64,000 nt of DNA from Mucispirillum schaedleri ASF457 (lineage in GTDB: Bacteria > Chrysiogenota > Deferribacteres > Deferribacterales > Mucispirillaceae), in the NCBI RefSeq assembly GCF_000487995.2, contig NZ_CP097562.1:62001-126000 (forward strand), written 5' to 3'. Made by a program: the position numbers and the translations under genes. Below the pieces are notes generated by a model. It ran no database searches. It saw nothing but the letters and a program-made list of their open reading frames with translations, and was not told the origin of the DNA. Positions 12,404 to 59,935 of the stretch are shown piece after piece (within the stretch, counting starts at the first letter, position 1; each line of letters opens with the position of its first letter).

Positions 12404-12429
12404 AAAAAAATTAAAAAATATAAAAATTT
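12404..12429. repeat. right target duplication of IS copy 1
   Basis: Exact repeat of 11284-11309. It is followed by TTA and then TTGACA, the -35 of the tRNA promoter. Confidence 0.9.
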
Positions 12430-12432
12430 TTA

Positions 12433-12461
12433 TTGACATTGTATGGTAAATAATATATATA
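12433..12461 (+). promoter_or_regulatory. sigma70 promoter of the tRNA-Gly/tRNA-Cys unit
   Basis: Consensus -35 TTGACA (12433-12438), 17-bp spacer, -10 TATATA (12456-12461). The first tRNA base is 12 nt beyond. A-tracts directly upstream look like an UP element and are the duplicated IS target. Confidence 0.85.
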
Positions 12462-12472
12462 GTAATTCCCAT

Positions 12473-12545
12473 GCGGGTGTAGCTCAGTTGGTAGAGCGTG
12501 ACCTTGCCAAGGTTGAGGTCGCGAGTTCGAGTCTCGTCACCCGCT
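12473..12545 (+). tRNA. tRNA-Gly (anticodon GCC)
   Basis: A 73-nt cloverleaf. The acceptor GCGGGTG pairs with CACCCGC; the D-arm is in AGCTCAGTTGGTAGAGC; the anticodon loop TTGCCAA is closed by TGACC/GGTTG; the T-arm loop is GTTCGAGTC; the discriminator base is T. CCA is not encoded. Confidence 0.95.
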
Positions 12546-12554
12546 TTTTTATAC

Positions 12555-12625
12555 GGCGACGTGGCCGAGTGGTTAGGCAGAGGCCTGCAAAGCCTTGTAC
12601 TCCGGTTCAAATCCGGACGTCGCCT
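12555..12625 (+). tRNA. tRNA-Cys (anticodon GCA)
   Basis: A 71-nt cloverleaf. The acceptor GGCGACG pairs with CGTCGCC; the anticodon loop is CTGCAAA; the T-loop is GTTCAAATC; the discriminator is T, as expected for tRNA-Cys. It follows tRNA-Gly after nine bases in the same transcript. CCA is not encoded. Confidence 0.95.
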
Positions 12626-12690
12626 TTCATTATTTTTCTTTTCTTTTTTTCATATTGTAATAAACTATGCAAAGATTTATGGAGTAATAT

Positions 12691-13143
12691 ATGAAAGTTT
12701 TTTTTATTATAATTTCTTTTTTAATATTAAATATTTCTGTATATGCTGAAGAATATGTAAAAGCATGCCCAAATTGTGATTTTGTAATTGTGGAAAAATC
12801 TGTTAATACAAATAACTGCAAAGAATATTTTAAATATTTTTTTAAAGATAAAAGAATAGGTAAAGCTTATGAAGAATTTGGAGATTATTTTGTTCCAACT
12901 CATAAATATGCTGAGTTTTGGAAACGATATCTGCCAGATTCTAATGAAAAATATTTTGTAAATAAAGAACATGTAAATAATTCTACAGTTTCAATATTTT
13001 ATGAAATTTTACCTAAAAAAATACATATTAAAGAAGGCAAAAAAGCAAATATAGAAATGATTATTGATAATGAAAAATATTATTTTCAGTTAAAAGAGAT
13101 AGATGGAGGCACTGAAATTTCATCTTGTTACAGTATTATTTAA
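12691..13143 (+). CDS. secreted protein of unknown function
   Basis: I do not recognise this 150-residue protein. It has a clear Sec signal peptide (MKVFFIIISFLILNISVYA, cleavage likely before EEYVKACP). The mature part is rich in Phe, Tyr and Lys and has three cysteines likely to form periplasmic disulfides (CPNC near residue 26-29, one near 43, one in the final SSCYSII). It lies 65 bp after tRNA-Cys and may be read from the tRNA promoter. A DsbA-like lipoprotein follows about 100 bp later, which is compatible with a disulfide-containing partner but does not prove it. Confidence 0.65.
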   Translation: MKVFFIIISFLILNISVYAEEYVKACPNCDFVIVEKSVNTNNCKEYFKYFFKDKRIGKAYEEFGDYFVPTHKYAEFWKRYLPDSNEKYFVNKEHVNNSTVSIFYEILPKKIHIKEGKKANIEMIIDNEKYYFQLKEIDGGTEISSCYSII

Positions 13144-13242
13144 GTAAATTTGTATAAAATATGTATGGAGTATATTAGAATATTTGAATAATATGTTTAA
13201 GTGTGTTAAATACTTATACTATTTATATTATAGGAGATTAAT

Positions 13243-14145
13243 ATGAAACGCTTATTTATACTTGTTGTTTTACTTGCTGCACTTGTTACTGGCTGCAAAT
13301 CTGCTGATTTGAAAGTATTAGAAAAAAATTTACAGGCAGGTTTTGCTCAAACTGGACAGGATATTAAAGTTCAAGTTATTGAACTTAAAAATCTTAAAGA
13401 TATACTTCCGGGCTTTGCATTTGTAGAAATAAAAATTTATAATAATAATAATCTTGTTAATACTGAAAGATTTATTACAAATGGCAGGTATTTTGCAAAG
13501 GATATAATTGATTCTAAAACATTATCTTCTTTAAAAGATGAATTAGATTTTGAATTTGCAAAAGTGGAAACAATAGATACATCTAAACTTACACTTGCAT
13601 CTGGCAATAAAGATGCTAAAAATGTAATTGTTGAAATTACTGATTTTCAATGTCCATACTGCAAAAAAGCTAATGCTTTATTTAAAGAAAAATTAGCAGA
13701 TAAATCAGACTATGCATTGTATATAGTTCATTTACCATTAGATATGCACCCAAATGCACAAATTATGGCACAAATTTTTGAAGCTGGTATGCAAATGGGT
13801 TTTAATTTTAAAAATGAACTTTTTGAAGCAGATTATATTAAAGTCATAGAGTCAAAAATTGAAGATTTGCAAGAAGCAGGCACTCAACTTAATCAAGAAA
13901 CATTAGCTGTATTAATTGATGAAGTAAATAATCAAATTATAAATGATTTTGCAGCTAAAACAGATAATCCTGATAAATTTAAATCATTAGTTTTATCTGA
14001 TGAAATTAAAACAAAAGTTGATGAAACAAAAGAATTAGCAGAAAATTTAAACATTAGTGCTACACCAGCATTTTATATTAATGGAAAGGCCATTTCTGGT
14101 TATAATGAAAGATTAATTTTAAAAGCTTTAGATGATATTAAATAG
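13243..14145 (+). CDS. thioredoxin-fold (DsbA/DsbG-like) lipoprotein
   Basis: Probable periplasmic thiol-disulfide oxidoreductase of 300 residues. It begins with a lipoprotein signal whose lipobox is LVTGC (Cys18). Residues about 30-115 form an N-terminal domain without cysteines. The thioredoxin domain starts near 118 and has ITDFQCPYCKKAN with the CPYC active site (137-140). The cis-proline loop is ATPAFYINGKAISGY near the C-terminus. The shape matches bacterial 'DsbA family/thioredoxin domain' proteins that oxidise or isomerise exported proteins. It is a single gene with a strong terminator directly after it. Confidence 0.85.
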   Translation: MKRLFILVVLLAALVTGCKSADLKVLEKNLQAGFAQTGQDIKVQVIELKNLKDILPGFAFVEIKIYNNNNLVNTERFITNGRYFAKDIIDSKTLSSLKDELDFEFAKVETIDTSKLTLASGNKDAKNVIVEITDFQCPYCKKANALFKEKLADKSDYALYIVHLPLDMHPNAQIMAQIFEAGMQMGFNFKNELFEADYIKVIESKIEDLQEAGTQLNQETLAVLIDEVNNQIINDFAAKTDNPDKFKSLVLSDEIKTKVDETKELAENLNISATPAFYINGKAISGYNERLILKALDDIK

Positions 14146-14168
14146 AAAATCATAATTAATTTTTTTAG

Positions 14169-14200
14169 TTCCGCCAATATTATTTGGCGGAATTTTTTTT
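14169..14200 (+). terminator. strong rho-independent terminator
   Basis: The 9-bp stem TTCCGCCAA / TTGGCGGAA with a TATTAT loop is followed by eight T residues. Confidence 0.93.
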
Positions 14201-14263
14201 GCCCTATTGTAAAAAATGAAAAAATTTAGTAAAATACTATTAAAATAAATATAAGGATATAGT

Positions 14264-16156
14264 ATGTCTGTAATAAAAAGGCTGTCGCCAGAAGTTGCTT
14301 CTAAAATAGCAGCAGGTGAAGTTGTTGAAAAACCTTTTAATGTTGTAAAAGAATTAATTGAGAATTCATGTGATGCTGGTGCATCAAAAATTATAGTTGA
14401 AGTTAATGAGGGTGGATTAAATAAAATAAAAATTATAGATAATGGCAAAGGAATAGATAAAGATGACTTACCACTTGCCTTAGAGCGTTTTGCTACAAGT
14501 AAAGCTGCAACTGTTGAAGATGTTTATTCTGCTGCAACTTTTGGGTTTCGTGGGGAAGCATTAGCAGCAATTTCTTCTGTCAGTGATTTTAAAATTACAA
14601 GCGGTAAAGATGGCAAAGCATATACTATCGCATGTCAGTATGGCAAAATTTGTGATATTAAACCAACTGCTGCTGTTAAAGGCACGATTATAGAAGCTGA
14701 CAGGCTTTTTGAAAACCTGCCTGCAAGGCGTAAATTTTTAAAAAGCTCTAAAAGTCTGGAAGGTGAAATTATAAAACTGATTAAACATTTTTCTCTTATT
14801 AATCCAGAAATTGATATTATTTTAAAATGCAATGATAAAGAAGTATATCATGCATTATCTTCTGATGATACAGTAGTGAGAGCATCCAAAGTATTTAATG
14901 GGAAAGCATTCTGTAAAGGAGTGGCAGAATATGCTGGTAAAAAAGTAACAGCTTGTGCCACACTTCCAGCAGCTAGTGACAGATTAAAAAGAGATGCCAT
15001 AATTATTGGTGTAAATGGAAGGCTTATAAAAGATGCAAGTCTAGTGCAGGCAGTTATTAATGCTTATCACAGACTTATTCCTGATGGCAGATTTCCTGCT
15101 GCGGTTATAGATATTAGAATTAATCCAGATATTGTTGATGCAAATGTGCATCCTGCAAAATTGGAAGTAAGGTTTGTAAATGCAGGAGAAATATTTTCTC
15201 TTGTAAATGATGCTGTTGCAAACTCTTTTAAAGGTAAAGGTGTAAATACTGGTTATACTGGTAATTATATACAGCAGGGTTATACAATTAATGATATACA
15301 AGATAATAAAGAGCAGAGTAATATAGAATATGAAAAACATGTAAAAAATAAGCCTGTATTTAATCAGGCAGGAAGCTATCCACCTTTTTCCAAGCATACA
15401 AACAGCAGCTTAAATACATCATATAAAGATGAAAGTCCAAAAATAAATAGTGCAGAAGTTCCACAGCCTGCTTATACATTATCTCTTGATGAAACTCTTG
15501 AAAATATTCCTGCATATAATACAGATATTTATGATAATACAGCAGCTGTTTTAAATGATAACAGAGATACAGTTGATAACCGTATTGCAAGTGGAGAATT
15601 CAGAGTTATAGGGCAGGTTGATAAAACATATATTATTATAGAAACACTAAACAAAGAAATTTTATTTATTGACCAGCATGCAGCACATGAAAGGGTGCTT
15701 TTTGAGAAAATACAGTCAGACAATACTGCAAAACCAAAACCTTCAATAGTTTTGCATGATGAAGTTGAAGTTGTAATGACTGATGAAATTATAGAAAATA
15801 TTGACAGATTCAAATTAATTATTGAATCTTTTGGTTATGGTTATAAAATTACAGGTATAAATAAGCTTGAAATTTTAAGAGTGCCATATACTATTATAAG
15901 GAAAAATATTGCAAAAGAATTTACAAATATAGCGGTAGATTTATGTTTAACTGGTAAATCAAAACAAGAAGAAGCACCACGAGCTATGCTTTCATGTAAA
16001 TCAGCAATAAAAGCAGGTGATGAATTAACTTATGCAGAAATGGAATATCTTGTTACACTGCTTTTTAATACTAATAATTTTGGTACCTGTCCCCATGGCA
16101 GACCAATTATATACATGATGACTGTGCAGGAGATTGCAAGGAAATTTTACAGATGA
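14264..16156 (+). CDS. mutL: DNA mismatch repair protein MutL (endonuclease type)
   Basis: Links MutS mismatch recognition to strand incision. The GHKL ATPase domain shows ELIENSCDAGASKI, IDNGKGID and FGFRGEALAAI in the first 110 residues. A low-complexity linker runs from about 320 to 440. The C-terminal dimerisation domain carries DQHAAHERVLFE near residue 470, the DQHA-x2-E-x4-E metal site of nicking MutL proteins, and CPHGRP near the end. This MutL is therefore expected to nick DNA itself, as in bacteria without MutH. It starts an operon and overlaps miaA by 4 bp. Confidence 0.95.
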   Translation: MSVIKRLSPEVASKIAAGEVVEKPFNVVKELIENSCDAGASKIIVEVNEGGLNKIKIIDNGKGIDKDDLPLALERFATSKAATVEDVYSAATFGFRGEALAAISSVSDFKITSGKDGKAYTIACQYGKICDIKPTAAVKGTIIEADRLFENLPARRKFLKSSKSLEGEIIKLIKHFSLINPEIDIILKCNDKEVYHALSSDDTVVRASKVFNGKAFCKGVAEYAGKKVTACATLPAASDRLKRDAIIIGVNGRLIKDASLVQAVINAYHRLIPDGRFPAAVIDIRINPDIVDANVHPAKLEVRFVNAGEIFSLVNDAVANSFKGKGVNTGYTGNYIQQGYTINDIQDNKEQSNIEYEKHVKNKPVFNQAGSYPPFSKHTNSSLNTSYKDESPKINSAEVPQPAYTLSLDETLENIPAYNTDIYDNTAAVLNDNRDTVDNRIASGEFRVIGQVDKTYIIIETLNKEILFIDQHAAHERVLFEKIQSDNTAKPKPSIVLHDEVEVVMTDEIIENIDRFKLIIESFGYGYKITGINKLEILRVPYTIIRKNIAKEFTNIAVDLCLTGKSKQEEAPRAMLSCKSAIKAGDELTYAEMEYLVTLLFNTNNFGTCPHGRPIIYMMTVQEIARKFYR

Positions 16157-17073
16157 TAATACCTATTATTACAGGTCCTACATCTTCTGGTAAAAGTGGC
16201 ACAGCTTTTAATGCAGCATTAAAAACAGGTATTGTTGAAATTATTAGTGCAGATGCATTCCAAGTATATACAAATCTTGATATTGGCACAGCAAAAGTAA
16301 GCAGGCAGGAGCAGCAGCAGGTAAAACATCATCTTATAGATATTATGCAGCCAGATGAATGCTATTCTGCTGGTATGTTTGTTCAGCAGGCAGAAAAACT
16401 TATTGATGATATTATAAAACGGACAAAAGTGCCTGTTATAACAGGCGGCACAGGGCTTTATATTAAATCATTGACTGATGGTATATTTAACTGCCCTGAA
16501 ATAGAAAGCAGTGTTAGAGAAGAATTGCAGAAAAAAGCAGAAAAAGATGGATTAGCTGTATTATATAATAAATTAGTGCAGGTTGATAATGAATATGCTT
16601 CTAAAATCAGCAGTAATGATCCCACAAGGATTATTCGTGCATTAGAAATATATTACGGACTTGGTATATCTTTTACAGAAGCACATAAAAAATATAACAG
16701 AAAACCAAAGTATAAATATACATGTGCAGTTTTATGGCAGGATAGAAAAGTGCTTTATGAAAAAATAAATGAAAGAACTTTGCATATGTGGCAAAATGGC
16801 TGGAAACAGGAAGTAGAAAATCTTTTAAAAGCAGGATATTCTACAGAATGTCCTGCTTTTAGAGCCATAGGATATAAGTTAATAGCAGATTATATTATGA
16901 ATGGAGGAAGTGCTGATGATGTTATAAATCAGATAGCAAAAGAAACAAGACATTTTGCAAAACGCCAGTATACTTGGTTTAGAAATAAAGAAAATGTAGT
17001 TATGTATAATAATATTTCGTTACTTGAAAATAATTTAATAGATTTAATTAATGGAAAAAGGAGCTTGTTATGA
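16153..17073 (+). CDS. miaA: tRNA dimethylallyltransferase
   Basis: Transfers a dimethylallyl group to A37 of tRNAs reading UNN codons. The 306-residue length is normal. Seen: P-loop GPTSSGKSG at the N-terminus, SADAFQVYTNLDIGTAK (the usual 'DSMQVY' block with Ala-Phe in place of Ser-Met), HHLIDIMQPDE, and GGTGLYIKSLTDG. The C-terminal AKRQYTWFRN is also typical. The ATG overlaps the mutL stop (mutL-miaA pairing is common) and the gene overlaps the next by 4 bp. The substrate dimethylallyl diphosphate would come from the MEP pathway started by dxs in this window. Confidence 0.94.
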   Translation: MIIPIITGPTSSGKSGTAFNAALKTGIVEIISADAFQVYTNLDIGTAKVSRQEQQQVKHHLIDIMQPDECYSAGMFVQQAEKLIDDIIKRTKVPVITGGTGLYIKSLTDGIFNCPEIESSVREELQKKAEKDGLAVLYNKLVQVDNEYASKISSNDPTRIIRALEIYYGLGISFTEAHKKYNRKPKYKYTCAVLWQDRKVLYEKINERTLHMWQNGWKQEVENLLKAGYSTECPAFRAIGYKLIADYIMNGGSADDVINQIAKETRHFAKRQYTWFRNKENVVMYNNISLLENNLIDLINGKRSLL

Positions 17074-17360
17074 GATATGCAATAATATTTACAGTCATTA
17101 TTTGTGCTATTGTATTTTATATTATATTTGGACATAATGGTATGCTTAAATACAATGAGCTTGTAACAGTTCGCCAAAGTTATGAAGAAAGATTAAGAGA
17201 AATGGATAAGGAAATAGCAGAAAAAGAAAGAGAATTGGAGCTTGCTATTAAAAATCAGGAATATTTAGAAGGAATTATTAGACGGGAGCTTGGTCTTCAG
17301 AAAGTAGGTGAAGATGTATATATTATAGAAGATAATAAAACCACAGAAGAAAAGAAATAA
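17070..17360 (+). CDS. FtsB/DivIC-like septum formation initiator
   Basis: A 96-residue bitopic membrane protein. One hydrophobic segment (about 4-20) is followed by a coiled coil of charged heptads (about 30-68) and the family-like end RRELGLQKVGEDVYII. FtsB/DivIC proteins join FtsL and FtsQ in the divisome and help switch on septal peptidoglycan synthesis. The start overlaps miaA by 4 bp and xseA follows 11 bp later, so it belongs to the mutL-miaA-xseA transcript. Confidence 0.85.
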   Translation: MRYAIIFTVIICAIVFYIIFGHNGMLKYNELVTVRQSYEERLREMDKEIAEKERELELAIKNQEYLEGIIRRELGLQKVGEDVYIIEDNKTTEEKK

Positions 17361-17371
17361 TTGAGAATATT

Positions 17372-19021
17372 ATGCAGGAATTTAGTGTTAAAGAAATATC
17401 ACATATATTATCAAGTATATTAAAAAATGCTTTTCCAGAAATGGTTGCCGTTACTGGCGAAATATCACAGGTATCAAAGCAGAATTCAAGTGGTCATATA
17501 TATTTTACATTAAAAGAAGGCGATTCTGTTTTAAATGCAACATATTTTAAATATTACCATACTGCTAATAATTTTATGCCTAAACTAGGTGATAAAGTAA
17601 AAGTGTTTGGTGAAATAAAAAGTTATGATAAATCAAGCAGTTATCAGATAAATGTTAAAAAAATAGAGTATGATTCAGAAGGGCTTTTATGGAAGCAGTT
17701 TGAAGAAATGAAAAAGAAACTCTATGCAGAAGGTCTTTTTGATGAGTCAAGAAAAAGTCCTGTGCCAAAATATCCATATAGAGCTGCCATATTAACTGCA
17801 TTAACTGGTGCTGTTATTAAGGATTTTATTGTTACAACTAAAAATGAAAAAGGCAGATATTTAATAGATGTGTGGAATATTCCTGTCCAGAATATTGAAA
17901 ATGCACCTGTTATTGCAGATACCATATTAAAAGCAGGAAGTCATACTGAAAGATATGATGTAATAGTGGTTATGCGTGGCGGCGGCAGTGTGGAGGATTT
18001 AGCCGTTTTTAATCAGGAAGTTGTAGCTCGTGCTGCAGCTGCATCAAAAGTGCCGTTAATTAGTGCAGTAGGTCATGAAACAGATTTTACAATTATAGAT
18101 TATGTTGCAGATTACAGAGCAGCAACCCCAACAGCAGCAGCTGTATATTTATCATCTCACTATAAAGCTGCTCAACAGCTGCTTGAAAAATATATATTTG
18201 TATTAAATAAAAATACTGTAAATATGCTTGATAAAAAAAATCAGCAGCTTGATATGGTTTCATTAAAATTAGAGAGTAAATCACCATTACACAGGCTTAT
18301 TAAACTTAATCACAAAATATCTGACTTTAATAATGTGCTTGAAAATATGCTTAATAAAAAATTATATGGATTAAATAAAAAGCTTTCAAAGTATGAATAT
18401 GTAATTACTGCATCTAATCCTGCTAATTTAATAGAAGCATACAAAGTGAGAATAGCTAACAGCCATAAAACATTATCAACAAATATGTTTGCTAGAATTT
18501 CAGCTTATAATTATAAAGAAATAATATTTAGGAAAAACATAAAAATAGCAGTATTAAATAAACTAGAAAAGAAATCGTCTCGTTTAGACTTTTATTTTCA
18601 TAAACTTAGTTTATTTAATCCTGCTAAAAAATTAGATGGTTATAAATATAAGTTTGATATAATAGAAAAATCTCTTTTAAAAGCAGTAAAAGAAAAATAT
18701 GCAGTATCATACAGGCAGTTAAAAGATGGAAGCAGGTGTTTAGAGCAGTATATAGTTGATTATCTATTTAATAAAAATGCAGATATTTCGCTGCTTGAAA
18801 GTAAACTATATCTGCTTGACCCACAAAATGTCATAGAAAGAGGCTATGCTGTTGTTACACAAAAAGAGAAAATAATATCTTCAGTTGATAATGTGGAAAT
18901 GGAAACTGAACTTACTATAACATTAAAAGATGGTGTAATTAGTGCATATCCTGAAGAAAAGAATAAAAATAATACTAAAAACATTACAGAATTAGATAAC
19001 ATAGAAAAAATTTTAAAATAG
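17372..19021 (+). CDS. xseA: exodeoxyribonuclease VII large subunit
   Basis: Catalytic subunit of the single-strand exonuclease that trims DNA to oligonucleotides. At 549 residues it is somewhat longer than E. coli XseA (456). The N-terminal OB-fold contains VTGEISQVSKQNSSGHIYFTLKE. The catalytic block has VIVVMRGGGSVEDLAVFN, then SAVGHETDFTIIDYVADYRAATPTAAA. A long coiled-coil region follows, and the C-terminus has the usual RGYAVVTQ strand. The small subunit gene xseB is not adjacent; it lies at about 38 kb in front of ispA. Confidence 0.94.
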   Translation: MQEFSVKEISHILSSILKNAFPEMVAVTGEISQVSKQNSSGHIYFTLKEGDSVLNATYFKYYHTANNFMPKLGDKVKVFGEIKSYDKSSSYQINVKKIEYDSEGLLWKQFEEMKKKLYAEGLFDESRKSPVPKYPYRAAILTALTGAVIKDFIVTTKNEKGRYLIDVWNIPVQNIENAPVIADTILKAGSHTERYDVIVVMRGGGSVEDLAVFNQEVVARAAAASKVPLISAVGHETDFTIIDYVADYRAATPTAAAVYLSSHYKAAQQLLEKYIFVLNKNTVNMLDKKNQQLDMVSLKLESKSPLHRLIKLNHKISDFNNVLENMLNKKLYGLNKKLSKYEYVITASNPANLIEAYKVRIANSHKTLSTNMFARISAYNYKEIIFRKNIKIAVLNKLEKKSSRLDFYFHKLSLFNPAKKLDGYKYKFDIIEKSLLKAVKEKYAVSYRQLKDGSRCLEQYIVDYLFNKNADISLLESKLYLLDPQNVIERGYAVVTQKEKIISSVDNVEMETELTITLKDGVISAYPEEKNKNNTKNITELDNIEKILK

Positions 19022-19142
19022 TATTTTTTTTATACCGCTTTTTTAAAAAATATGGTATGATTTTAAGATATTTTAAAAATGCCAGTATATATGGTATAAA
19101 TAATAAGGAATATAAATAAAATATAGATATGAGGAGATGTAC

Positions 19143-19622
19143 ATGAGCAGAATACCTATAACACGCGGTGGTTATGAAAAATTAAAGGCAGAGCTTGATA
19201 AACTGCGTAATGTAGATAGGAATGAGGTAATACTTGCTATTCAGGAAGCAAGAGGACATGGGGATTTAAGTGAAAATGCTGAATATGATGCAGCAAAAGA
19301 AAGGCAGGGTATGATTGAAGCACGCATTAATGAACTTGAATATAAAATGAGCCTTTTTGAAATTATAGATATATCACAGATGTCTGGTGATAAAGTTGCT
19401 TTTGGTGCTACTGTCACTATTGAAAATATTGATACAGAAGAAAGAAAAACTTATACCATAGTAGGCAGTGATGAAGCAGATATTTTTAATGGAAAAATAT
19501 CTATTATGTCACCACTTGCAAGAGCTATGATGGGTAAAAAGGAAAGTGATGATTTCACTGTTCAGGCTCCAAAAGGTGAAACTGAATATGAAATTATTAA
19601 AATTGAATTTATAGAAGGATAA
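19143..19622 (+). CDS. greA: transcription elongation factor GreA
   Basis: Rescues backtracked RNA polymerase by stimulating transcript cleavage. From MSRIPI it is 159 residues, the family norm. The N-terminal coiled coil has GHGDLSENAEYDAAKERQ with the acidic tip residues, and the C-terminal FKBP-like domain ends with ISIMSPLARAMMGKKESDD and YEIIKIEF. An ATG two codons earlier (19137) directly abuts the GAGGAG ribosome site, so 19143 with about 6 nt spacing is chosen. The 115-bp gap after xseA holds only a weak A+T hairpin (TATACC...GGTATG). Confidence 0.95.
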   Translation: MSRIPITRGGYEKLKAELDKLRNVDRNEVILAIQEARGHGDLSENAEYDAAKERQGMIEARINELEYKMSLFEIIDISQMSGDKVAFGATVTIENIDTEERKTYTIVGSDEADIFNGKISIMSPLARAMMGKKESDDFTVQAPKGETEYEIIKIEFIEG

Positions 19623-19647
19623 TCTATTATTTTATCAGGAGGAAATT

Positions 19648-20208: not shown

Positions 20209-20210
20209 TT

Positions 20211-21951: not shown

Positions 21952-21952
21952 T

Positions 21953-22588: not shown

Positions 22589-22594
22589 TTAATA

Positions 22595-47928: not shown

Positions 47929-47957
47929 GTTATAATTAAATTTTACAAAATTGTAAA
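47929..47957 (-). promoter_or_regulatory. sigma70 promoter of the NifA-like gene
   Basis: On the minus strand: TTTACA (-35, 47952-47957), 17-bp spacer, TATAAC (-10, 47929-47934). The -35 is one arm of a palindrome TTTACA-N4-TGTAAA (47942-47957), a possible autoregulatory site. The IS target duplication begins 3 bp upstream. Confidence 0.7.
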
Positions 47958-47960
47958 GAG

Positions 47961-47987
47961 AAAATATAAAATAGAATATTGAAAGTA
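47961..47987. repeat. promoter-proximal target duplication of IS copy 2
   Basis: 27 bp (AAAATATAAA...GAAAGTA) that recur exactly at 49082-49108 on the other side of the IS. The sequence is unrelated to the duplications at the other two copies, so it derives from the target. Confidence 0.93.
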
Positions 47988-49081
47988 TCTTAACTAACAG
48001 GACAAATGTTACACTTTTAGTAAAAAATAAATCTTAACTTAATATAAATCAAGCAATAATTTATTTTCAATAACAATCTCATATGGAGATTTAAAATTTA
48101 AGCATGTTTTAGCAGTATTATTATATCTATCTTCATGCTGTTTAAGAGCCTTAATTAATTCATCTTTGGAATAGAATTTATTATTTGCATATAAAATTTT
48201 TCCATCCTCTCTATGACTTCTTTCCACCTTTCCATTCTGCCAAGGTGAATAAGGTCTTATTCGTTTAATAGTATATCCTTTCTTTTCAGCTGTCTCTTCA
48301 AAATAGCTTTTCTTGTTTGTAACTTCCTTATCATTTACAAACTCATAGCCATTATCCACTTGAATTGTTTTTAGTGGAAAGCCAAATTTACTTTCCAGTT
48401 CGTCTAAAAACTTACCTGTTTCAAATGTGCTTTTTTCTTCTACTATTTCTAATACTCTCATTCTGCTGTATTCATCTATCGCTGTTATCTGATAATATTT
48501 TTTACCATAGCTGGAAAACATTATACATTCCTGTGGAACATATTTTATATCTATCTGAACCTTGTCGCCTATATACTGACCTGTTATTGGTTCATATCTT
48601 GTATAGCTCTTTTTTGACTTGTTTAATGACTTTAAGCCTTTCTTCCTTATCTGCATACACATACTGCCAAAACTACGATTATAACCAATTTCTAGAAGTC
48701 TGACATATACCTCCGCATTACCATACAAACCATGCTCGGCATATGTGTTAAATATTAAATCAAGCTCTTCTTTACTATGCTTATTTGGACTGGTTCTTGG
48801 TCTACGACTTTTAAAAGATAAACTCTGAACTGTTCCATCATATTTCTTTAAATGCCTGTATACAAACATACGGTTCACTTGATATTTGCGGGCTGCTTTC
48901 GTTGCTCCTTTTTTTAATGCATACTCACATAACCGTTGACGAAATCGCATTTCTTCTGTTATTATCACTTTATTCATTGTGATACCTCTTAGTTTAGTTT
49001 AGTTTTTTGCTTAATTTTATACTATATACTAAGAGGTATTTTTTTATACTTATTTTTGTAACATATGTCTCATAATCTTAC
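47988..49081 (-). mobile_element. insertion sequence copy 2 (1094 bp)
   Basis: Same element as at 11310 and 58783, in minus orientation. The right end (TCTTAACTAACAGGAC in plus reading) faces the promoter of the NifA-like gene, and the left end faces the dapL-gltDB unit. The RBS-masking inverted repeat is present near 48982-49039. In the diagnostic positions I checked (the Thr codon in PRTSPN and AAGTTAAG after the stop) it matches copy 3, not copy 1. Confidence 0.95.
48039..48977 (-). CDS. DDE transposase (IS481/IS3-like), copy 2
   Basis: Intact 312-residue transposase with the same protein sequence as copy 3 and one residue different from copy 1 (Thr instead of Asn in PRTSPN). The helix-turn-helix N-terminus and the D, D, E acids (QIDIKYVP, IQVDNGYEF, NGKVERSHRED) are present. 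It is transcribed in the same direction as the downstream NifA-like gene, so read-through from the IS could add to that gene's expression. Confidence 0.93.
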   Translation of the reverse strand: MNKVIITEEMRFRQRLCEYALKKGATKAARKYQVNRMFVYRHLKKYDGTVQSLSFKSRRPRTSPNKHSKEELDLIFNTYAEHGLYGNAEVYVRLLEIGYNRSFGSMCMQIRKKGLKSLNKSKKSYTRYEPITGQYIGDKVQIDIKYVPQECIMFSSYGKKYYQITAIDEYSRMRVLEIVEEKSTFETGKFLDELESKFGFPLKTIQVDNGYEFVNDKEVTNKKSYFEETAEKKGYTIKRIRPYSPWQNGKVERSHREDGKILYANNKFYSKDELIKALKQHEDRYNNTAKTCLNFKSPYEIVIENKLLLDLY

Positions 49082-49108
49082 AAAATATAAAATAGAATAT
49101 TGAAAGTA
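49082..49108. repeat. distal target duplication of IS copy 2
   Basis: Exact 27-bp repeat of 47961-47987, directly after the IS left end. Confidence 0.93.
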
Positions 49109-50403: not shown

Positions 50404-50405
50404 TT

Positions 50406-51797: not shown

Positions 51798-51816
51798 AAT
51801 CTTTTATCCTCAAAAA

Positions 51817-54800
51817 TTAGTTGCTGCTGTTTTCTTTCATTGACTGTAATGCTTTTTTATAATCAACAGGAAATACTTTTACAAACATATCTCTATAATT
51901 TTCCCAGTCTGCAGTTATTTCTTTTGCTTTTGGGCTGTCTGTATATTTAATATGTTCATTCAGCAGTGATAAAAGCTCTTTTTCATCATCACTGTTTGGC
52001 TCAATATTTTCTAAATCAACAGAGTTTGTGTTGCAGCGTAAGTCAAAGTCATTACTCATATCAAGAACATAAGCAATACCGCCAGTCATACCTGCTGCAA
52101 AGTTTACACCAGTATTGCCAAGTATTACAACTCTGCCACCTGTCATATATTCGCATCCATGGTCGCCAATACCTTCTACAACTGATATAAAGCCACTGTT
52201 TCTAATAGCAAACCTTTCACCAGCCTGACCATTTAAGAATATTTTACCACTTGTGCCACCATATCCAATAACATTACCAGCTATAACATTTTCTGATGCT
52301 TTAAATGTTGCATTTTTTGCTGGTTTTACAATGATTTTGCCGCCAGAAATACCTTTACCAACAAAGTCATTTGCTTCCCCTTCTAAATTAAATGTGATAC
52401 CGTGTGATAAAAATGCACCAAAGCTCTGTCCAGCACAGCCTCTAAAGTTTACATTGATAGTATCATTTTCTAAACCTTTTAAGCCGTATTTTTTAGCCAC
52501 ATTATGAGAAAGCTCTGTTCCAACAGTTCTGTTAATATTTTTTATTTCTAAATCAATAGTTTTAGTTTTACCTGTTTCAATACTTTCTTTAAATGGAGCA
52601 AGTAAAAATTCTCTATCATAGTTTTCAAGCACATAAGATGATGTTCCGCTGTATTTTATTTCTTTACCGCTTACAGTATGCAGAATTTTTGAAAAATCAA
52701 AATTTTTAGCTTTATAAAATTCTATTGCTTTATTCATATGCAATAAATCACTTCTGCCAACAGCTTCATCAAGAGTTCTAAATCCAAGAGCAGCTAAATA
52801 TTCTCTTACTTCTTCTGCAACAAACATAAGGAAATTTTCAATATATTCTACTTTACCTGTAAATTTTTTCCTTAACTCTTTATCTTGAGTAGCAATACCA
52901 ACAGGGCATGTATTTGAATGGCACTGCCTCATCATAACACAACCTAAACTTGCAAGAACTGTTGTAGCAAATCCAAACTCTTCTGCACCTAAAAGGGCAG
53001 CAATAATAACATCTCTGCCTGTTTTTAACTGTCCGTCAGTCTGCAGTCTTACTCTGCCGCGAAGTTTATTTAAAACAAGTGTCTGCTGAGCTTCTGCAAG
53101 CCCTAATTCCCAAGGCAGACCAGCATGTTTAATGCTTGTTAATGGAGAAGCACCAGTGCCACCATCATGACCACTTATTAATATTACATCTGAATGAGCT
53201 TTTGCAACACCTGCAGCAATTGTGCCAACACCTGCTTCTGAAACAAGTTTTACAGATATTCTTGCTTCTGGGTTAGAGTTACGCAAATCATATATAAGCT
53301 GAGCTAAATCTTCAATAGAGTATATATCATGGTGTGGTGGAGGAGAAATTAAGCTTACATTTGGCATAGAATGTCTTAATTTTGCAATAAAAGTATCTAC
53401 TTTATGACCTGGAAGCTGACCACCTTCACCGGGTTTTGCACCTTGTGCCATTTTAATTTGCAGTTCTTTTGCATTAGTCAAATATTCTATTGTTACCCCA
53501 AACCTGCCACTTGCTATTTGTTTTACAGCACTGTTTCTAATTTCACCTTTTGCATTAGGTTTATATCTTTCTGGGTCTTCACCACCTTCACCACAGTTAC
53601 TCATTCCACCTAATTTATTCATAGCAATAGCTATTGTTTCATGAGCTTCTGGACTGATAGAGCCAAGTGACATAGCACCAGTCACGAATCTTTTAACAAT
53701 AGATGATGCACTTTCAACTTCTTCTAAAGGCACAGGCACTGCTGTTGCAAATTCAAAAAGTCCCCTTAATGTGCATAAATGTTTTGACTGCTCATTAATA
53801 AGTTTTGCATAAGATTTATATTTTTCTTTATTATTGCCTTGAACAGCTTGTCTAAATAATGTTATGCTCTCAGGTGTCCATAAATGATTTTCTCCATCTT
53901 TTCTGTAATGATACAGTCCGCCAGAAGAAAGCATATTGTCATTATTTTCATCAGCTGCTTTTCTTCTAATTAATGCTTCATACTCTATTTCTTTTAAACC
54001 TATACCATTAATACGGCTTGCAGTGCCTGTAAAGTATTCTTTTATAATATCACTGTTTAAGCCAACTGCTTCAAAAAGCTGACCGCTTCTATAACTTCTT
54101 AATGTGGAAATTCCCATTTTACTCATTACTTTTAAAAGCCCTTTATCAACGGCTTTAACATAGTTTTCAGCAGCTTTAACTCTATCTGCTTTTATTTCAT
54201 TATCATCAACAAGGGCAGATATGCTTTCAAGTGCGAGGTAAGGGCATACAGCTGTTGCACCATACCCTAAAAGCAGTGCAAAGTGCATAACTTCTCTAGC
54301 TTCACCTGTTTCTAAAATAATTGCTGATTCTGAGCGTATTCCTGCTTTTGATAATGCTTTGTTTACAGCAGTAGCAGCAAGTAGAGACGGGGTTGGTGTA
54401 TATCCGTCTTCAATATTTTTATCACTGAGTATTAAAATAGGACAGCCTTCTTTTACTTTTGCAACAGCTTTTTCTGCAATATTTTTTAAAGACTGCTCTA
54501 AATCGTTTTTAAATGATATATTAATAACAGCAGATTTAAAGCCTTCTTCACTAATATTTCTAAGTCTTTTAAGCTCATCATTTGTAATAATTGGTCTTGG
54601 AAGCTCAATTACTCTTGCATGGTGTTCACCATCTTCTAATATATTGCCTTTATTGCCAATAAATGTAATAAGGCTCATTACCAAATCTTCTCTTATAGAA
54701 TCTATTGGCGGGTTAGTAACCTGAGCAAAAAGCTGTTTAAAATAGTTAAATAAAAGCTGTGGCTTTTCACTTAATACTGCCAAAGCAGCATCATTTCCCA

Positions 54801-56229
54801 TTGAGCCAACAGCTTCTGCTCCTTTTTCTGCCATTGGTTTAATAATAAAATCAAAATCTTCTTTAGTATATCCAAAAAGTTTTTGCTTTTTTATAATATT
54901 TTTTGATGGTTCAGCAGGGGAAAGTGATTCAAAAAGTCCATGAACATATATTCTATTTTCATTAATCCATCTTCTATATGGCAGGTTTCTAGCAGCAGTT
55001 TTTTTAACGGCTGCATCATATATAATTCTATGGTTTTCTAAATCACAGTATATAATTTCTCCAGGACGAAGTCTGCCTTTTTTTAACACTTTATCTTCAG
55101 GAATATCAAGAACACCTGTTTCAGAAGCAAGCACTAAGACATTATCAGTAGTAACAGTGTATCTTGCTGGACGAAGTCCGTTTCTATCAAGTATTGCTCC
55201 AGCATTAATGCCATCTGAAAAAGCAACAGCAGCAGGACCGTCCCATGGTTCAATTAATGCTGAATTATATTCAAAAAATGCTCTTACATCTTTACCCATG
55301 TGGTATTTTGAGCCCCATGCCTGTGGTATAAGCATAAGCATTGCATGGCATAAATCTCTGCCGCTTGCAACAAGCAGTTCAAACATATTATCAAGAGATG
55401 CAGAGTCGCTTTGGCCATCTTTAATTAGAGGCAGAATTTCTTTTAAATCTTCTCCTAAAAGCTCTGATGAAAACTGCAATTCTCTGCATGCAAGATTATT
55501 TAAATTACCTTTTAATGTGTTTATTTCACCATTATGAGCAATATACCTGAATGGGTGAGCAAGCTCCCATGTAGGAAATGTATTTGTGCTGTATCTTTGG
55601 TGAACTAATGCAATAGGTGATTTAAAAGAATCATCTTTTAAATCCAGATAAAAGTTTTCTACCTGAGTTGCCATAAAAAGCCCTTTATATACTATACTTT
55701 TTGATGACATACTAGATATATATACATTTTTAAATTTAATTTCTATCAACCTTCTTGCTGTAAAAAGTTTTCTTTCAAATTGTGCATTATTATCATATTT
55801 ACTTTTTATAAATATTTGCCTTATTTTAGGACATGTAACTCTTGCAGCTTTACCTACTGCATTAATATCAATAGGCACATCCCGCCAGCAGATAATTTCG
55901 CCACATTTTTCTGTTAAAATTTTTTCAATATCATCTTCAATATTTTCTCCGCCAAAAATAACAGCAACACCATACTTGCCATATTCTGGCAGTTTTTCTT
56001 TTACTGCTTTTCTAAAAAATTCATCTGGCAGAGAAGTAAGGATACCAGCACCGTCACCAGTTTCAGGGTCTCCGCCTGTTGCTCCTCTGTGCATTAAATT
56101 TTTTAAAATTGTAATACCATTTTTTACAGTTTGATGTGTTGGTATATTTTCTAAATCAGCAATAAGCCCCACACCACAGGCATCTTTTTCATATTGGCTG
56201 TTATAAAGCCCTGTATTTTCAGGATACAT
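51817..56229 (-). CDS. gltB: glutamate synthase large subunit
   Basis: Forms two glutamates from 2-oxoglutarate and glutamine. The 1470-residue protein has a short propeptide ending before Cys in KDACGVGLIAD, the N-terminal nucleophile of the class II amidotransferase domain. The FMN-binding synthase domain includes MSNCGEGGEDPERY, LPGHKVDTFIAKLRHSMP and GHDGGTGASPLTSIKHAG. The [3Fe-4S] ligands are in CVMMRQCHSNTC. The C-terminal beta-helix (GXGXG) domain begins near 1215. GGAG precedes the ATG. It is divergent from glnA across a 308-bp regulatory gap. Confidence 0.97.
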   Translation of the reverse strand: MYPENTGLYNSQYEKDACGVGLIADLENIPTHQTVKNGITILKNLMHRGATGGDPETGDGAGILTSLPDEFFRKAVKEKLPEYGKYGVAVIFGGENIEDDIEKILTEKCGEIICWRDVPIDINAVGKAARVTCPKIRQIFIKSKYDNNAQFERKLFTARRLIEIKFKNVYISSMSSKSIVYKGLFMATQVENFYLDLKDDSFKSPIALVHQRYSTNTFPTWELAHPFRYIAHNGEINTLKGNLNNLACRELQFSSELLGEDLKEILPLIKDGQSDSASLDNMFELLVASGRDLCHAMLMLIPQAWGSKYHMGKDVRAFFEYNSALIEPWDGPAAVAFSDGINAGAILDRNGLRPARYTVTTDNVLVLASETGVLDIPEDKVLKKGRLRPGEIIYCDLENHRIIYDAAVKKTAARNLPYRRWINENRIYVHGLFESLSPAEPSKNIIKKQKLFGYTKEDFDFIIKPMAEKGAEAVGSMGNDAALAVLSEKPQLLFNYFKQLFAQVTNPPIDSIREDLVMSLITFIGNKGNILEDGEHHARVIELPRPIITNDELKRLRNISEEGFKSAVINISFKNDLEQSLKNIAEKAVAKVKEGCPILILSDKNIEDGYTPTPSLLAATAVNKALSKAGIRSESAIILETGEAREVMHFALLLGYGATAVCPYLALESISALVDDNEIKADRVKAAENYVKAVDKGLLKVMSKMGISTLRSYRSGQLFEAVGLNSDIIKEYFTGTASRINGIGLKEIEYEALIRRKAADENNDNMLSSGGLYHYRKDGENHLWTPESITLFRQAVQGNNKEKYKSYAKLINEQSKHLCTLRGLFEFATAVPVPLEEVESASSIVKRFVTGAMSLGSISPEAHETIAIAMNKLGGMSNCGEGGEDPERYKPNAKGEIRNSAVKQIASGRFGVTIEYLTNAKELQIKMAQGAKPGEGGQLPGHKVDTFIAKLRHSMPNVSLISPPPHHDIYSIEDLAQLIYDLRNSNPEARISVKLVSEAGVGTIAAGVAKAHSDVILISGHDGGTGASPLTSIKHAGLPWELGLAEAQQTLVLNKLRGRVRLQTDGQLKTGRDVIIAALLGAEEFGFATTVLASLGCVMMRQCHSNTCPVGIATQDKELRKKFTGKVEYIENFLMFVAEEVREYLAALGFRTLDEAVGRSDLLHMNKAIEFYKAKNFDFSKILHTVSGKEIKYSGTSSYVLENYDREFLLAPFKESIETGKTKTIDLEIKNINRTVGTELSHNVAKKYGLKGLENDTINVNFRGCAGQSFGAFLSHGITFNLEGEANDFVGKGISGGKIIVKPAKNATFKASENVIAGNVIGYGGTSGKIFLNGQAGERFAIRNSGFISVVEGIGDHGCEYMTGGRVVILGNTGVNFAAGMTGGIAYVLDMSNDFDLRCNTNSVDLENIEPNSDDEKELLSLLNEHIKYTDSPKAKEITADWENYRDMFVKVFPVDYKKALQSMKENSSN

Positions 56230-56269
56230 TTAAATACTCCTAACTATTTATTCCTTAATATTTATTATA

Positions 56270-56285
56270 ATCAAAAACTATGCCA
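56270..56285 (-). promoter_or_regulatory. possible degenerate sigma54 promoter of gltB
   Basis: On the minus strand TGGCATAGTTTTTGAT gives GG and GA ten bases apart. The -24 box is good, but the -12 box has GA in place of the usual GC. It lies about 40 nt from the gltB start. Confidence 0.3.
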
Positions 56286-56336
56286 TAATTTTTTTATGTA
56301 AAAATAAGATTTTTTATAAAATTTTTTGGAAAAAAT

Positions 56337-56376
56337 TGTAAAACTAATATTTTTGTTTTACAGTTTTGTAAAAAAT
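56337..56376. promoter_or_regulatory. candidate activator-binding site between gltB and glnA
   Basis: A perfect inverted repeat TGTAAAAC (56337-56344) - N10 - GTTTTACA (56355-56362), followed by another TGTAAAA (56367-56373). It lies about 100 bp upstream of the glnA -24 element and also upstream of gltB, where an enhancer for a sigma54 activator would be expected. Confidence 0.5.
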
Positions 56377-56458
56377 AATTATAGAGAAATATTTAAAATT
56401 TATTATTTTTTCTTTTAAAATAAAGAAGTTTTATGTATTATCTGAAATGTAAAAATTT

Positions 56459-56475
56459 TTGGCACTTAGATTGCA
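56459..56475 (+). promoter_or_regulatory. sigma54 (-24/-12) promoter of glnA
   Basis: TTGGCACTTAGATTGCA has GG (56461-56462) and GC (56473-56474) exactly ten bases apart and matches TGGCAC-N5-TTGCA fully. The start codon is about 60 nt downstream. Confidence 0.85.
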
Positions 56476-56537
56476 TTAATTATGCAGTGAAATAAAAAAG
56501 ATAAAAATTAATATATAATGAAATTTAAGGAGGCAGT

Positions 56538-58676
56538 ATGAGTTTTTCAAAACGATACTTGACTATTAATGCTATTGCAGAAAATAAAGCAAAGGAATAT
56601 GCAAAAGCAGAAAAAGCAACATTAGAACATTATGGTGAAGATGTTTTTAATGCAAAAGCTATTAGAGAATATTTACCAAAAAAATCAGCAGAAAAGCTAT
56701 TAAATACTATTAATAATAGAGCACTGCTTGACCCAGAAATAGCAGCTGATGTTGCTCATGGTATGAAACAGTGGGCGATAGAAAGAGGTGCAACTCATTT
56801 TACACACTGGTTTCAGCCTTTAACTGGCTCAACTGCTGAAAAGCATGATTCTTTTTTAGACATAGAAGGTGAAAATGCTATATTTGCATTTTCTGCTAAA
56901 AATTTAATTGTTGGTGAGCCTGATGCTTCATCTTTCCCATCAGGTGGTTTACGCAGAACATTTGAAGCAAGAGGATACACTGCATGGGACCCTACAAGCC
57001 CAGCATTTATTAAACGCCATACAAATGGTGCTACTTTATGTATCCCAACAGCTTTTTGTTCATATACTGGGGAAGCTCTTGATAAAAAAACACCACTTTT
57101 ACGCTCTATTCAGTGTCTTTCATTATCTACTCAAAGGCTTATGAAATGTTTTGGTTTAAAAGAAGAAAAAGTTACAATAACTCTTGGTGCTGAACAGGAA
57201 TATTTTTTAATAGATAAAAGATTTTATTTACACAGATCAGACCTTTTGCAGACTGGCAGAACATTGTTTGGTGCAACACCGCCAAAACATCAACAATTAG
57301 AAGACCATTATTTTGGCTCAATACATCAAAGAGTGCTTTATTTTATGAATGAAGTTGAACATGAATTATGGAGATTAGGAGTTCCTGCAAAAACCCGTCA
57401 TAATGAAGTTGCTCCTGGACAGTTTGAACTTGCACCAATGTTTGAAGATTTAAATTTAGCAGTTGACCATAATATGCTTATTATGGATACACTTCGTCTT
57501 ATAGCAGACAGGCATGGATTTGTTTGTCTTTTACATGAAAAACCATTTGCAGGAGTAAATGGCAGTGGTAAACATAATAATTGGTCTATAAATTATGGGG
57601 ATATTAATCTTTTAAATCCTGGTAATAACCCTCAGCAGAATGCTGTATTTTTAACTGTATTATCTGGTATTATTAGAGCTGTTGATTCTCATGCTGATAT
57701 GCTGAGAGCTACAGTTGCCCATGCAGGAAATGACCACAGACTTGGAGCAAATGAAGCACCACCTGCTATTATTTCTATTTATCTTGGAGACCAGCTTAAT
57801 GAAGTAATTGAGAATATAGAAAAGGGAGAAAATAATTCTAAACATAAAGCAGGAGTTATGCAGATAGGTGTAGATACTCTTCCAAATTTACCAAAAGATG
57901 CAACTGACAGGAATAGAACAAGTCCTTTTGCATTTACTGGCAATAAATTTGAATTTAGGGCACCAGGCTCAAGCCAGTCATGTTCTGGTCTAATGACAGT
58001 ATTAAATACTATTGTGGCAGATTCTTTTGATTATATTTCTGAACAGCTTGAAAGCCATATAGGTAATGAAGAAGCATTTAATAATGCACTTCAAAAAGTG
58101 TTAAAAGATATTATTAAAACACATAAAAGAGTTATCTTTAACGGCGATGGATATACAGATGAATGGAAAGATGAAGCAGCACGCAGGGGACTTCCAAATG
58201 CTGTTAATACAATGGATGCACTTCGCAGTTTAGTAAATGATAAAAATATTAATCTTTTTGGTAAGTATGGAGTTTATTCAAAAAAAGAACTTCAATCAAG
58301 GTTTGAAGTATTTTTGGAAGAATATCACCGTAAAATACGAATTGAAGGCGAAGTAGCATTGAATATAGTTCGTAATAATATTTTACCTGCTGTAATAGAA
58401 GAATTTAAAACAGAGCTTTCTGCTGTAAAATCTGCAACTGATGCAGGAATTACTGTTGGTGTTGATGCATTAAAAAGAAATGTAGAGCTTTTAGGTAAAG
58501 GTCTTGAAGATTTAACAGAAAAAACTGAAAAAATGGAAAAAGCTGTTACAGGACTTCATGAAGAAATACTTGAAGCAATGGCAGAATTAAGAGAAGTTGT
58601 TGATAGATTAGAAAAAATAGTATCAGATACTTTATGGCCGCTTCCTAAATACAGAGAAATGCTTTTTATAAAATAA
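56538..58676 (+). CDS. glnA: glutamine synthetase, type III
   Basis: Makes glutamine from glutamate, ammonia and ATP. At 712 residues it belongs to the long GSIII (GlnN) group, not the 450-residue GSI. Seen: ATHFTHWFQPLTG (about 80-92), DASSFPSGGLRRTFEARGYTAWDP, GAEQEYFLID, RHNEVAPGQFELAP, and FAGVNGSGKHNNWSINYG with ATP/glutamate ligands. The C-terminus is a helical extension with coiled-coil heptads. AAGGAGG precedes the ATG. GSIII lacks the adenylylation tyrosine segment of GSI, so control is probably transcriptional, through the sigma54 promoter in front. Confidence 0.96.
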   Translation: MSFSKRYLTINAIAENKAKEYAKAEKATLEHYGEDVFNAKAIREYLPKKSAEKLLNTINNRALLDPEIAADVAHGMKQWAIERGATHFTHWFQPLTGSTAEKHDSFLDIEGENAIFAFSAKNLIVGEPDASSFPSGGLRRTFEARGYTAWDPTSPAFIKRHTNGATLCIPTAFCSYTGEALDKKTPLLRSIQCLSLSTQRLMKCFGLKEEKVTITLGAEQEYFLIDKRFYLHRSDLLQTGRTLFGATPPKHQQLEDHYFGSIHQRVLYFMNEVEHELWRLGVPAKTRHNEVAPGQFELAPMFEDLNLAVDHNMLIMDTLRLIADRHGFVCLLHEKPFAGVNGSGKHNNWSINYGDINLLNPGNNPQQNAVFLTVLSGIIRAVDSHADMLRATVAHAGNDHRLGANEAPPAIISIYLGDQLNEVIENIEKGENNSKHKAGVMQIGVDTLPNLPKDATDRNRTSPFAFTGNKFEFRAPGSSQSCSGLMTVLNTIVADSFDYISEQLESHIGNEEAFNNALQKVLKDIIKTHKRVIFNGDGYTDEWKDEAARRGLPNAVNTMDALRSLVNDKNINLFGKYGVYSKKELQSRFEVFLEEYHRKIRIEGEVALNIVRNNILPAVIEEFKTELSAVKSATDAGITVGVDALKRNVELLGKGLEDLTEKTEKMEKAVTGLHEEILEAMAELREVVDRLEKIVSDTLWPLPKYREMLFIK

Positions 58677-58711
58677 ATTAAGTCATTTATCTTTTAGTAG
58701 ATTATAATTTT

Positions 58712-58749
58712 CCTTATCCTTAAATATTTAAGGATAAGGGAAGTTTTTA
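58712..58749 (+). terminator. terminator after glnA
   Basis: A 12-bp stem, CCTTATCCTTAA against TTAAGGATAAGG with a 4-nt loop, is followed by GAAGTTTTTA. Confidence 0.88.
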
Positions 58750-58755
58750 TAATTA

Positions 58756-58782
58756 ATCCATTTTAGAAATAATAAAAATTAT
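58756..58782. repeat. distal target duplication of IS copy 3
   Basis: 27 bp (ATCCATTTTAG...AAAAATTAT) left of the IS, repeated exactly at 59877-59903. Confidence 0.93.
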
Positions 58783-59876
58783 GTAAGATTATGAGACATA
58801 TGTTACAAAAATAAGTATAAAAAAATACCTCTTAGTATATAGTATAAAATTAAGCAAAAAACTAAACTAAACTAAGAGGTATCACAATGAATAAAGTGAT
58901 AATAACAGAAGAAATGCGATTTCGTCAACGGTTATGTGAGTATGCATTAAAAAAAGGAGCAACGAAAGCAGCCCGCAAATATCAAGTGAACCGTATGTTT
59001 GTATACAGGCATTTAAAGAAATATGATGGAACAGTTCAGAGTTTATCTTTTAAAAGTCGTAGACCAAGAACCAGTCCAAATAAGCATAGTAAAGAAGAGC
59101 TTGATTTAATATTTAACACATATGCCGAGCATGGTTTGTATGGTAATGCGGAGGTATATGTCAGACTTCTAGAAATTGGTTATAATCGTAGTTTTGGCAG
59201 TATGTGTATGCAGATAAGGAAGAAAGGCTTAAAGTCATTAAACAAGTCAAAAAAGAGCTATACAAGATATGAACCAATAACAGGTCAGTATATAGGCGAC
59301 AAGGTTCAGATAGATATAAAATATGTTCCACAGGAATGTATAATGTTTTCCAGCTATGGTAAAAAATATTATCAGATAACAGCGATAGATGAATACAGCA
59401 GAATGAGAGTATTAGAAATAGTAGAAGAAAAAAGCACATTTGAAACAGGTAAGTTTTTAGACGAACTGGAAAGTAAATTTGGCTTTCCACTAAAAACAAT
59501 TCAAGTGGATAATGGCTATGAGTTTGTAAATGATAAGGAAGTTACAAACAAGAAAAGCTATTTTGAAGAGACAGCTGAAAAGAAAGGATATACTATTAAA
59601 CGAATAAGACCTTATTCACCTTGGCAGAATGGAAAGGTGGAAAGAAGTCATAGAGAGGATGGAAAAATTTTATATGCAAATAATAAATTCTATTCCAAAG
59701 ATGAATTAATTAAGGCTCTTAAACAGCATGAAGATAGATATAATAATACTGCTAAAACATGCTTAAATTTTAAATCTCCATATGAGATTGTTATTGAAAA
59801 TAAATTATTGCTTGATTTATATTAAGTTAAGATTTATTTTTTACTAAAAGTGTAACATTTGTCCTGTTAGTTAAGA
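58783..59876 (+). mobile_element. insertion sequence copy 3 (1094 bp)
   Basis: Same element as at 11310 and 47988. The left end starts GTAAGATTATGAG and the right end finishes GTTAGTTAAGA. It lies between the glnA terminator and the carA promoter, with the transposase pointing towards carA. The RBS-masking inverted repeat is at 58825-58836 and 58871-58882. No damage is visible, and it matches copy 2 at the positions where copy 1 differs. Confidence 0.95.
58887..59825 (+). CDS. DDE transposase (IS481/IS3-like), copy 3
   Basis: Intact 312-residue transposase, identical in protein sequence to copy 2. It has a single reading frame with an N-terminal helix-turn-helix part, then the integrase core with Asp in QIDIKYVP, Asp in IQVDNGYEF and Glu in NGKVERSHRED. 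It is co-directional with carA downstream. Confidence 0.93.
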   Translation: MNKVIITEEMRFRQRLCEYALKKGATKAARKYQVNRMFVYRHLKKYDGTVQSLSFKSRRPRTSPNKHSKEELDLIFNTYAEHGLYGNAEVYVRLLEIGYNRSFGSMCMQIRKKGLKSLNKSKKSYTRYEPITGQYIGDKVQIDIKYVPQECIMFSSYGKKYYQITAIDEYSRMRVLEIVEEKSTFETGKFLDELESKFGFPLKTIQVDNGYEFVNDKEVTNKKSYFEETAEKKGYTIKRIRPYSPWQNGKVERSHREDGKILYANNKFYSKDELIKALKQHEDRYNNTAKTCLNFKSPYEIVIENKLLLDLY

Positions 59877-59903
59877 ATCCATTTTAGAAATAATAAAAAT
59901 TAT
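59877..59903. repeat. promoter-proximal target duplication of IS copy 3
   Basis: Exact 27-bp repeat of 58756-58782. It is followed by TTA and then TTGACA of the carA promoter. Confidence 0.93.
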
Positions 59904-59906
59904 TTA

Positions 59907-59935
59907 TTGACAGTAAATATGTATATCTATAATAT
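59907..59935 (+). promoter_or_regulatory. sigma70 promoter of carAB
   Basis: Consensus TTGACA (59907-59912), 17-bp spacer, TAATAT (59930-59935). It leaves a leader of about 50 nt before the carA ATG. No pyrimidine attenuator or PyrR-type hairpin is visible in it. Confidence 0.88.

Follow-up and report, generated by a model that had tools for sequence, protein, structure and literature searches.

Three copies of one insertion sequence (IS) lie in the window, the 64,000-nucleotide stretch analyzed here (positions 62001-126000 of the 2.347-Mb single-contig Mucispirillum schaedleri ASF457 genome; NZ_CP097562.1, GCF_000487995.2), and each stands immediately upstream of a promoter. DDE transposases usually choose their targets loosely or with the help of dedicated proteins, and the locus raises the question of whether a one-gene element aims at promoters and, if so, what it recognizes there. 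The copies and -35 hexamers described in the original prediction proved real, each hexamer being separated by a 17-bp spacer from its -10 element (Table 1), while the gap between duplication and -35, given there as 3 bp, was corrected to 4 bp. An ambiguous terminal T was assigned to the IS because at sites such as L002, L014, L015, L017 and L020 the T of the left end is absent from the right-hand duplication; with this assignment the duplication measures 25 to 27 bp and stops 4 bp short of the -35.

Table 1. Features of the three IS copies and their target promoters, in window coordinates
Feature	Position	Strand	Remarks
IS copy 1	11309..12403	+	1095 bp; bounded by duplications and 25-copy comparison
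Leader hairpin, copy 1 transposase mRNA	11352..11409	+	3' arm holds RBS AAGAGGT; ATG at 11414
Transposase, copy 1, 312 aa	11414..12352	+	
Target duplication, copy 1, left	11284..11308	+	25 bp
Target duplication, copy 1, right	12404..12428	+	25 bp; then 4-bp gap TTTA, 12429-12432
Promoter TTGACA-17-TATATA, tRNA-Gly/tRNA-Cys	12433..12461	+	-35 at 12433-12438; kept in congeners
tRNA-Gly, tRNA-Cys genes	12473-12545, 12555-12625		
IS copy 2	47988..49082	-	1095 bp; transposase 48039-48977, minus strand
Target duplication, copy 2, left-end side	49083..49108	-	26 bp
Target duplication, copy 2, promoter side	47962..47987	-	26 bp; 4-bp gap 47958-47961
Promoter TTTACA-17-TATAAC, NifA-like regulator gene	47929..47957	-	-35 at 47952-47957
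IS copy 3	58782..59876	+	1095 bp; transposase 58887-59825
Target duplication, copy 3, left	58756..58781	+	26 bp
Target duplication, copy 3, right	59877..59902	+	26 bp; 4-bp gap TTTA, 59903-59906
Promoter TTGACA-17-TAATAT, carA (ATG 59993)	59907..59935	+	-35 at 59907-59912; kept in congeners

The element carries a single gene between the ends TGTAAG...TTAAGA (termini TGTAAGATTATGAGACATATGTTACA...TGTAACATTTGTCCTGTTAGTTAAGA), the boundaries being set by the duplications and by comparison of 25 copies. Its 312-aa product is an IS481-like DDE (rve) transposase with matches to rve and rve_3 above the Pfam cut-offs, and among solved structures the closest are those of IstA from an IS21-type element and of retroviral integrases; an AlphaFold model of the protein was set aside at a mean pLDDT of 53. 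The leader of the transposase mRNA folds into a hairpin covering the ribosome-binding site (MFE -17.1 kcal/mol; z = -4.2 versus shuffles), the usual safeguard of an IS against read-through transcripts. The nearest named relatives with the element are Mucispirillum assemblies.

Distance and orientation of the copies

Across the 2.35-Mb genome, 25 full copies were found, representing 24 independent sites since L018 and L019 are the two ends of one composite insertion and have one outer duplication in common. Both duplications were present at 21 of the 24 sites, measuring 25 to 27 bp and imperfect at L016; L007 and L022 had none. Promoter likeness was scored against E. coli consensus hexamers, and 20 stretches of 20 kb served as background. 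At offset +4 from the end of the duplication, TTG was present at 14 and TT at 18 of the 21 sites (binomial P = 2.4e-20 for TTG against its genomic frequency of 0.0174), and at each other offset from -6 to +14 TTG occurred at no more than two sites. The mean -35 match at +4 was 4.29/6, compared to 1.78 ± 0.30 at other offsets, and all 18 TT sites had a -10-like hexamer 16 to 18 bp further on, the match peaking at a spacer of exactly 17. The promoter motif always lay on the side of the IS right end; as a mirror test, the left flanks were at background, with TTG at 29 to 31 bp in 2/24 versus 14/24 right flanks. The original prediction had named a single spacing across many copies as its confirmation, and across the genome the copies concentrate at one offset, +4, with a spacer peak at 17.

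The rule is not absolute, as some 4 to 7 of the 24 sites are off-target or uninterpretable. The motif is absent and the rule broken at L016, at L023, which interrupts a 791-aa ORF, and at L024, which overlaps the transposase gene of a resident IS3-like element; L013 lies within an ORF next to a weak motif, and L008 in a hairpin resembling a terminator, where no gene promoter is evident. Copies inside genes had been put forward as grounds for refutation; a few indeed exist (L023, L013 and L024, all without a good motif), and most sites obey the offset. In another copy without duplication, L003 (C1:805350-806443), the right end nonetheless lies precisely 4 bp away from TTGACA-17-TATATA; the duplicated segment may have been lost, or may never have formed.

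Random insertion, with survival only of those insertions that spare genes and promoters, agrees with the intergenic position of most copies upstream of intact genes. Such selection would permit many distances and both orientations, whereas one of each was observed, and the promoters at the targets are native, not supplied by an IS end. As a control, the resident IS3-like element, subject to the same selection in the same genome, was examined at its 12 complete copies; on neither side did it favor any offset to promoter-like sequence. In view of the single offset, the single orientation and this control, we reject selection alone and leave it a very small probability. The control element (L192-L208) is about 1.45 kb long and often adjoins dispersed GTCATACTGAGC / ACTTCGCC-type repeats.

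Larger structures were also encountered. A 7.3-kb IS-flanked segment occurs twice (C1:2107059-2115496 and C1:1520699-1529129; L018, L019, L020, L025, L209), the segment bounded by L018 and L019 being a copy of the L020-L025 interval. An outer 25-bp duplication of its own flanks this second copy and ends 4 bp short of TTGATA-17-TAAAAT, which suggests a composite transposon that transposed as a whole, or else one that recombined into a resident copy. The cargo ORFs appear, by reading, to be Hpt-, HD-, thioredoxin-, pyrophosphatase- and Fic-like and resemble ordinary chromosomal genes. Inverted copies of a roughly 21-bp sequence (CGTTTTTAGATTTTAC-like) flank L016 and are present also beside L018.

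Relatives in other species and lineages

In the decayed copies L026 and L027 and the right ends of other Mucispirillum species, TTG was found 29 to 31 bp from the IS end in 8 of 11 cases (P 2e-10). Five relatives with transposases roughly 40 to 50% identical, in Firmicute-type sequences, likewise have a -35 at 29 to 31 bp from the IS end, these being 5 of 13 testable Firmicute-type ends (P 0.001), several of which fall at contig ends. At L075, a 26-bp duplication is followed by CCAC and TTGACG-18-TAGAAT; tRNA genes are preceded by TTGAAT-17-TATAAT at L111 (a Monoglobus plasmid), TTGCCA-17-TATACT at L125 and TTGACA-17-TATACT at L128; and L073 has TTGACA. L127, on a contig shared with L121, is followed by a tRNA promoter 72 bp downstream. 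The flanks of these relatives are GC-rich and unrelated, their 4-bp gaps vary (CCAC, CCGC, AATG, GGTA), and gaps and duplications are unrelated in sequence, so that only the promoter is common. Among the five that obey the rule, L075 alone has kept both duplications, and tRNA neighbors are over-represented in phage-derived contigs, which makes this set weaker than the Mucispirillum set. The core of the original prediction, namely one orientation and one distance to sigma70-type promoters with a duplication over the UP-element/alpha-CTD region, holds in the genome, in the genus and in distant relatives.

Further traces of the element came from the same comparisons. At L166 (G006:C17), an IS right end, 25 bp and a second IS left end follow one another, and two copies appear to be stacked at one target. 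L137 (G009, upstream of carA) has a sequence resembling a decayed IS right end (GTAATATATGTCTTATTAGTTAAAA) just upstream of the segment equivalent to the duplication, as if the carA promoter had been hit likewise in another species. L134 (IMGVR_UViG_2895758547_000005) is a MITE-like derivative of ~113 bp with both Firmicute-type IS ends and no transposase. The Firmicute-type right ends of L073, L111, L125 and L128 carry TTGACA and the left ends TACAAT; joined in a circle, such ends would form a promoter for the transposase. A first scan of viral contigs with the window transposase gave no match. L076-L088, also on viral contigs, each consist of an IS481-like transposase gene that stands alone downstream of its own promoter. 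Neither IS ends nor duplications were detected there; the gene possibly encodes a domesticated or phage transposase, and these loci were left out of the evidence for the rule.

What marks the target

The tRNA-Gly/Cys promoter retains TTGACA/T and TATATA in seven congeners that have no IS there, and the carA promoter retains TTGACA in 9/9 compared Mucispirillum genomes, with an exact -10 in all but one; both are thus kept in congeners mostly lacking the IS at those sites. Most motif matches are then followed by a start codon or tRNA at an ordinary leader distance. At equal 10-bp motif score, the -10 match was 4.65/6 at insertions versus 3.46 ± 0.24 at intergenic sites (0/20,000 draws), and the strengths of -35 and -10 were inversely related (Spearman -0.61, p = 0.007), both again by E. 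coli consensus hexamers. About 87% of motif-like sites fall in ORFs, and if the word alone were the target, insertions in ORFs should carry it; the copies that interrupt ORFs have no good match. These data favor a functional promoter, not merely a TTGACA-like word, as the target, and on that basis we take the targeting to be promoter-directed. Within Mucispirillum, YTA is preferred directly before the -35, which suggests that the transposase also reads some DNA itself. We also considered whether the target resembles the IS end, which is suggestive in L075 (TTGACG in both) and in the TTGACA-bearing Firmicute-type ends, and rejected it; Mucispirillum ends have no TTGACA.

We propose, with a probability of about 0.6, that the transposition complex of this IS481-like element is directed to sigma70 promoters by promoter-bound RNA polymerase holoenzyme as the address, together with a local DNA preference. 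The transposase would dock on the upstream face of the holoenzyme, contacting sigma region 4 and/or alpha-CTD, where class II activators also bind, and in Mucispirillum the YTA preference would assist this address. With the IS right end facing the promoter, two strand transfers would occur with ~25 bp between them, one next to the promoter, 4 bp upstream of the -35 (about -40/-41), and the other near -65, since the 17-bp spacer puts the -35 at about -36 to -31. Gap repair would then duplicate the segment from -41 to -65, which is the alpha-CTD/UP-element region, so the original upstream sequence of the promoter would be preserved and expression of the gene should continue. The element would probably gain an accessible landing site whose use is harmless to the host.

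Contact with promoter-bound RNA polymerase is, we infer from sequence comparison, the best account, and its main rival is direct reading of the -35 region. By this rival, RNA polymerase would play no part, and the transposase itself would recognize the word that surrounds the -35 (about TYTATTGACA) or the shape of that DNA. The A at the last position before the -35 (16/21 sites versus 30% of predicted promoters) and the Y-T before it exceed what predicted promoters contain, the L008 hairpin carries TCTATT, and off-target L016 keeps TCTA. The excess -10 signal at equal motif score, the compensation between -35 and -10 strength, the ORF insertions lacking a word found mainly in ORFs, and the persistence of the promoter in relatives whose four gap bases vary all speak against it, and we hold direct reading to be unlikely, though well ahead of the next candidate. 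That candidate is another DNA-bound protein or feature marking the site, such as a class II activator at -41.5, a nucleoid protein or AT-rich bent upstream DNA. Mucispirillum duplications are AT-rich, and H-NS-bound regions capture transposons in gammaproteobacteria (PMC11335895), but the duplications of L075 and L125 are not AT-rich, and a distance to the -35 that is exact to the base across many unrelated genes and phyla points to a general factor rather than a gene-specific activator or a broad AT-rich zone, making such a mark improbable.

A one-gene IS with single-base promoter precision would tie transposition to the transcription machinery; it would flag promoters in genomes lacking transcription maps, and would point to a compact system placing DNA upstream of genes while leaving the genes unbroken.

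Comparison with known systems

In being a single-ORF DDE (rve) transposase of ~300 aa, the 312-aa protein agrees with the IS481 family, and IS481 (NF033577) is the best model for it as for every clade member tested, yet it scores 166.8 bits against the equivalog cut-off of 224; relatives score 214, 156.8, 181.8 and 158.8 bits, so that all clade members tested (157-214) fall below it. IS481 duplications in ISfinder are 2 to 15 bp, mostly 6, and promoter targeting is not reported for that family (PMC10045372), whereas this promoter-aimed element duplicates 25 to 27 bp. Duplications of IS481, IS481EU and IS1202 elements fall into size classes of about 5, 15 and 25 bp, a step close to one helical turn (PMC10045372).

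The long duplication agrees with the IS1202 subgroup (16-28 bp) and is close to the 27 to 28 bp of IS1202 and ISSeq2 (PMC10132070), elements compared here by description only. The IS1202 transposase, also compared by description, has 465 aa and its family 394 to 507 aa, versus 308 to 312 aa in this clade; the residue seven after the catalytic E, Q in the IS1202 family, is G in the window transposase (P0001), N in P0002 and Q in P0003 and L075, as read from the alignment. The long-duplication IS1202 group has no known target (PMC10132070), and promoter aiming, if true, would explain why some IS groups make 25-bp duplications.

The closest parallel is the ISAjo2 subgroup of the IS1202 family (ISAjo2, ISAba32, ISAba71; PMC10132070), which has in common with this IS a one-gene DDE organization, a fixed orientation and a fixed distance to an address site, terminal repeats of about 25 bp and a TGT outer left end. 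ISAjo2-type elements duplicate 5 bp, insert 5 bp away from a XerC site and encode 441 to 457 aa; targeting is presumed to lie in their transposase, which has been proposed to touch XerC (PMC10132070). This IS instead stands 4 bp from the -35 of a promoter, with 25 to 27 bp duplicated and 312 aa encoded.

Our literature search, limited to open-licence papers and not proof of absence, returned no paper describing an IS that targets sigma70 promoters, and as far as could be found, single-base promoter aiming has not been described for a bacterial IS. Ty1 and Ty3 retrotransposons integrate upstream of Pol III genes via the transcription machinery and spare the gene. Their integrase has the same broad fold as this transposase, and both take a set place upstream of genes, but Ty1/Ty3 are eukaryotic retrotransposons that use Pol III factors, so this IS would work alike without being a member, through the polymerase contact we infer. 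We give even odds to the broader picture of a widespread gut-bacterial IS481-like clade that is guided by promoter-bound polymerase holoenzyme and duplicates the alpha-CTD segment, making it a bacterial analog of Pol III-directed retrotransposons, and in which the long-duplication IS1202 elements may do likewise.
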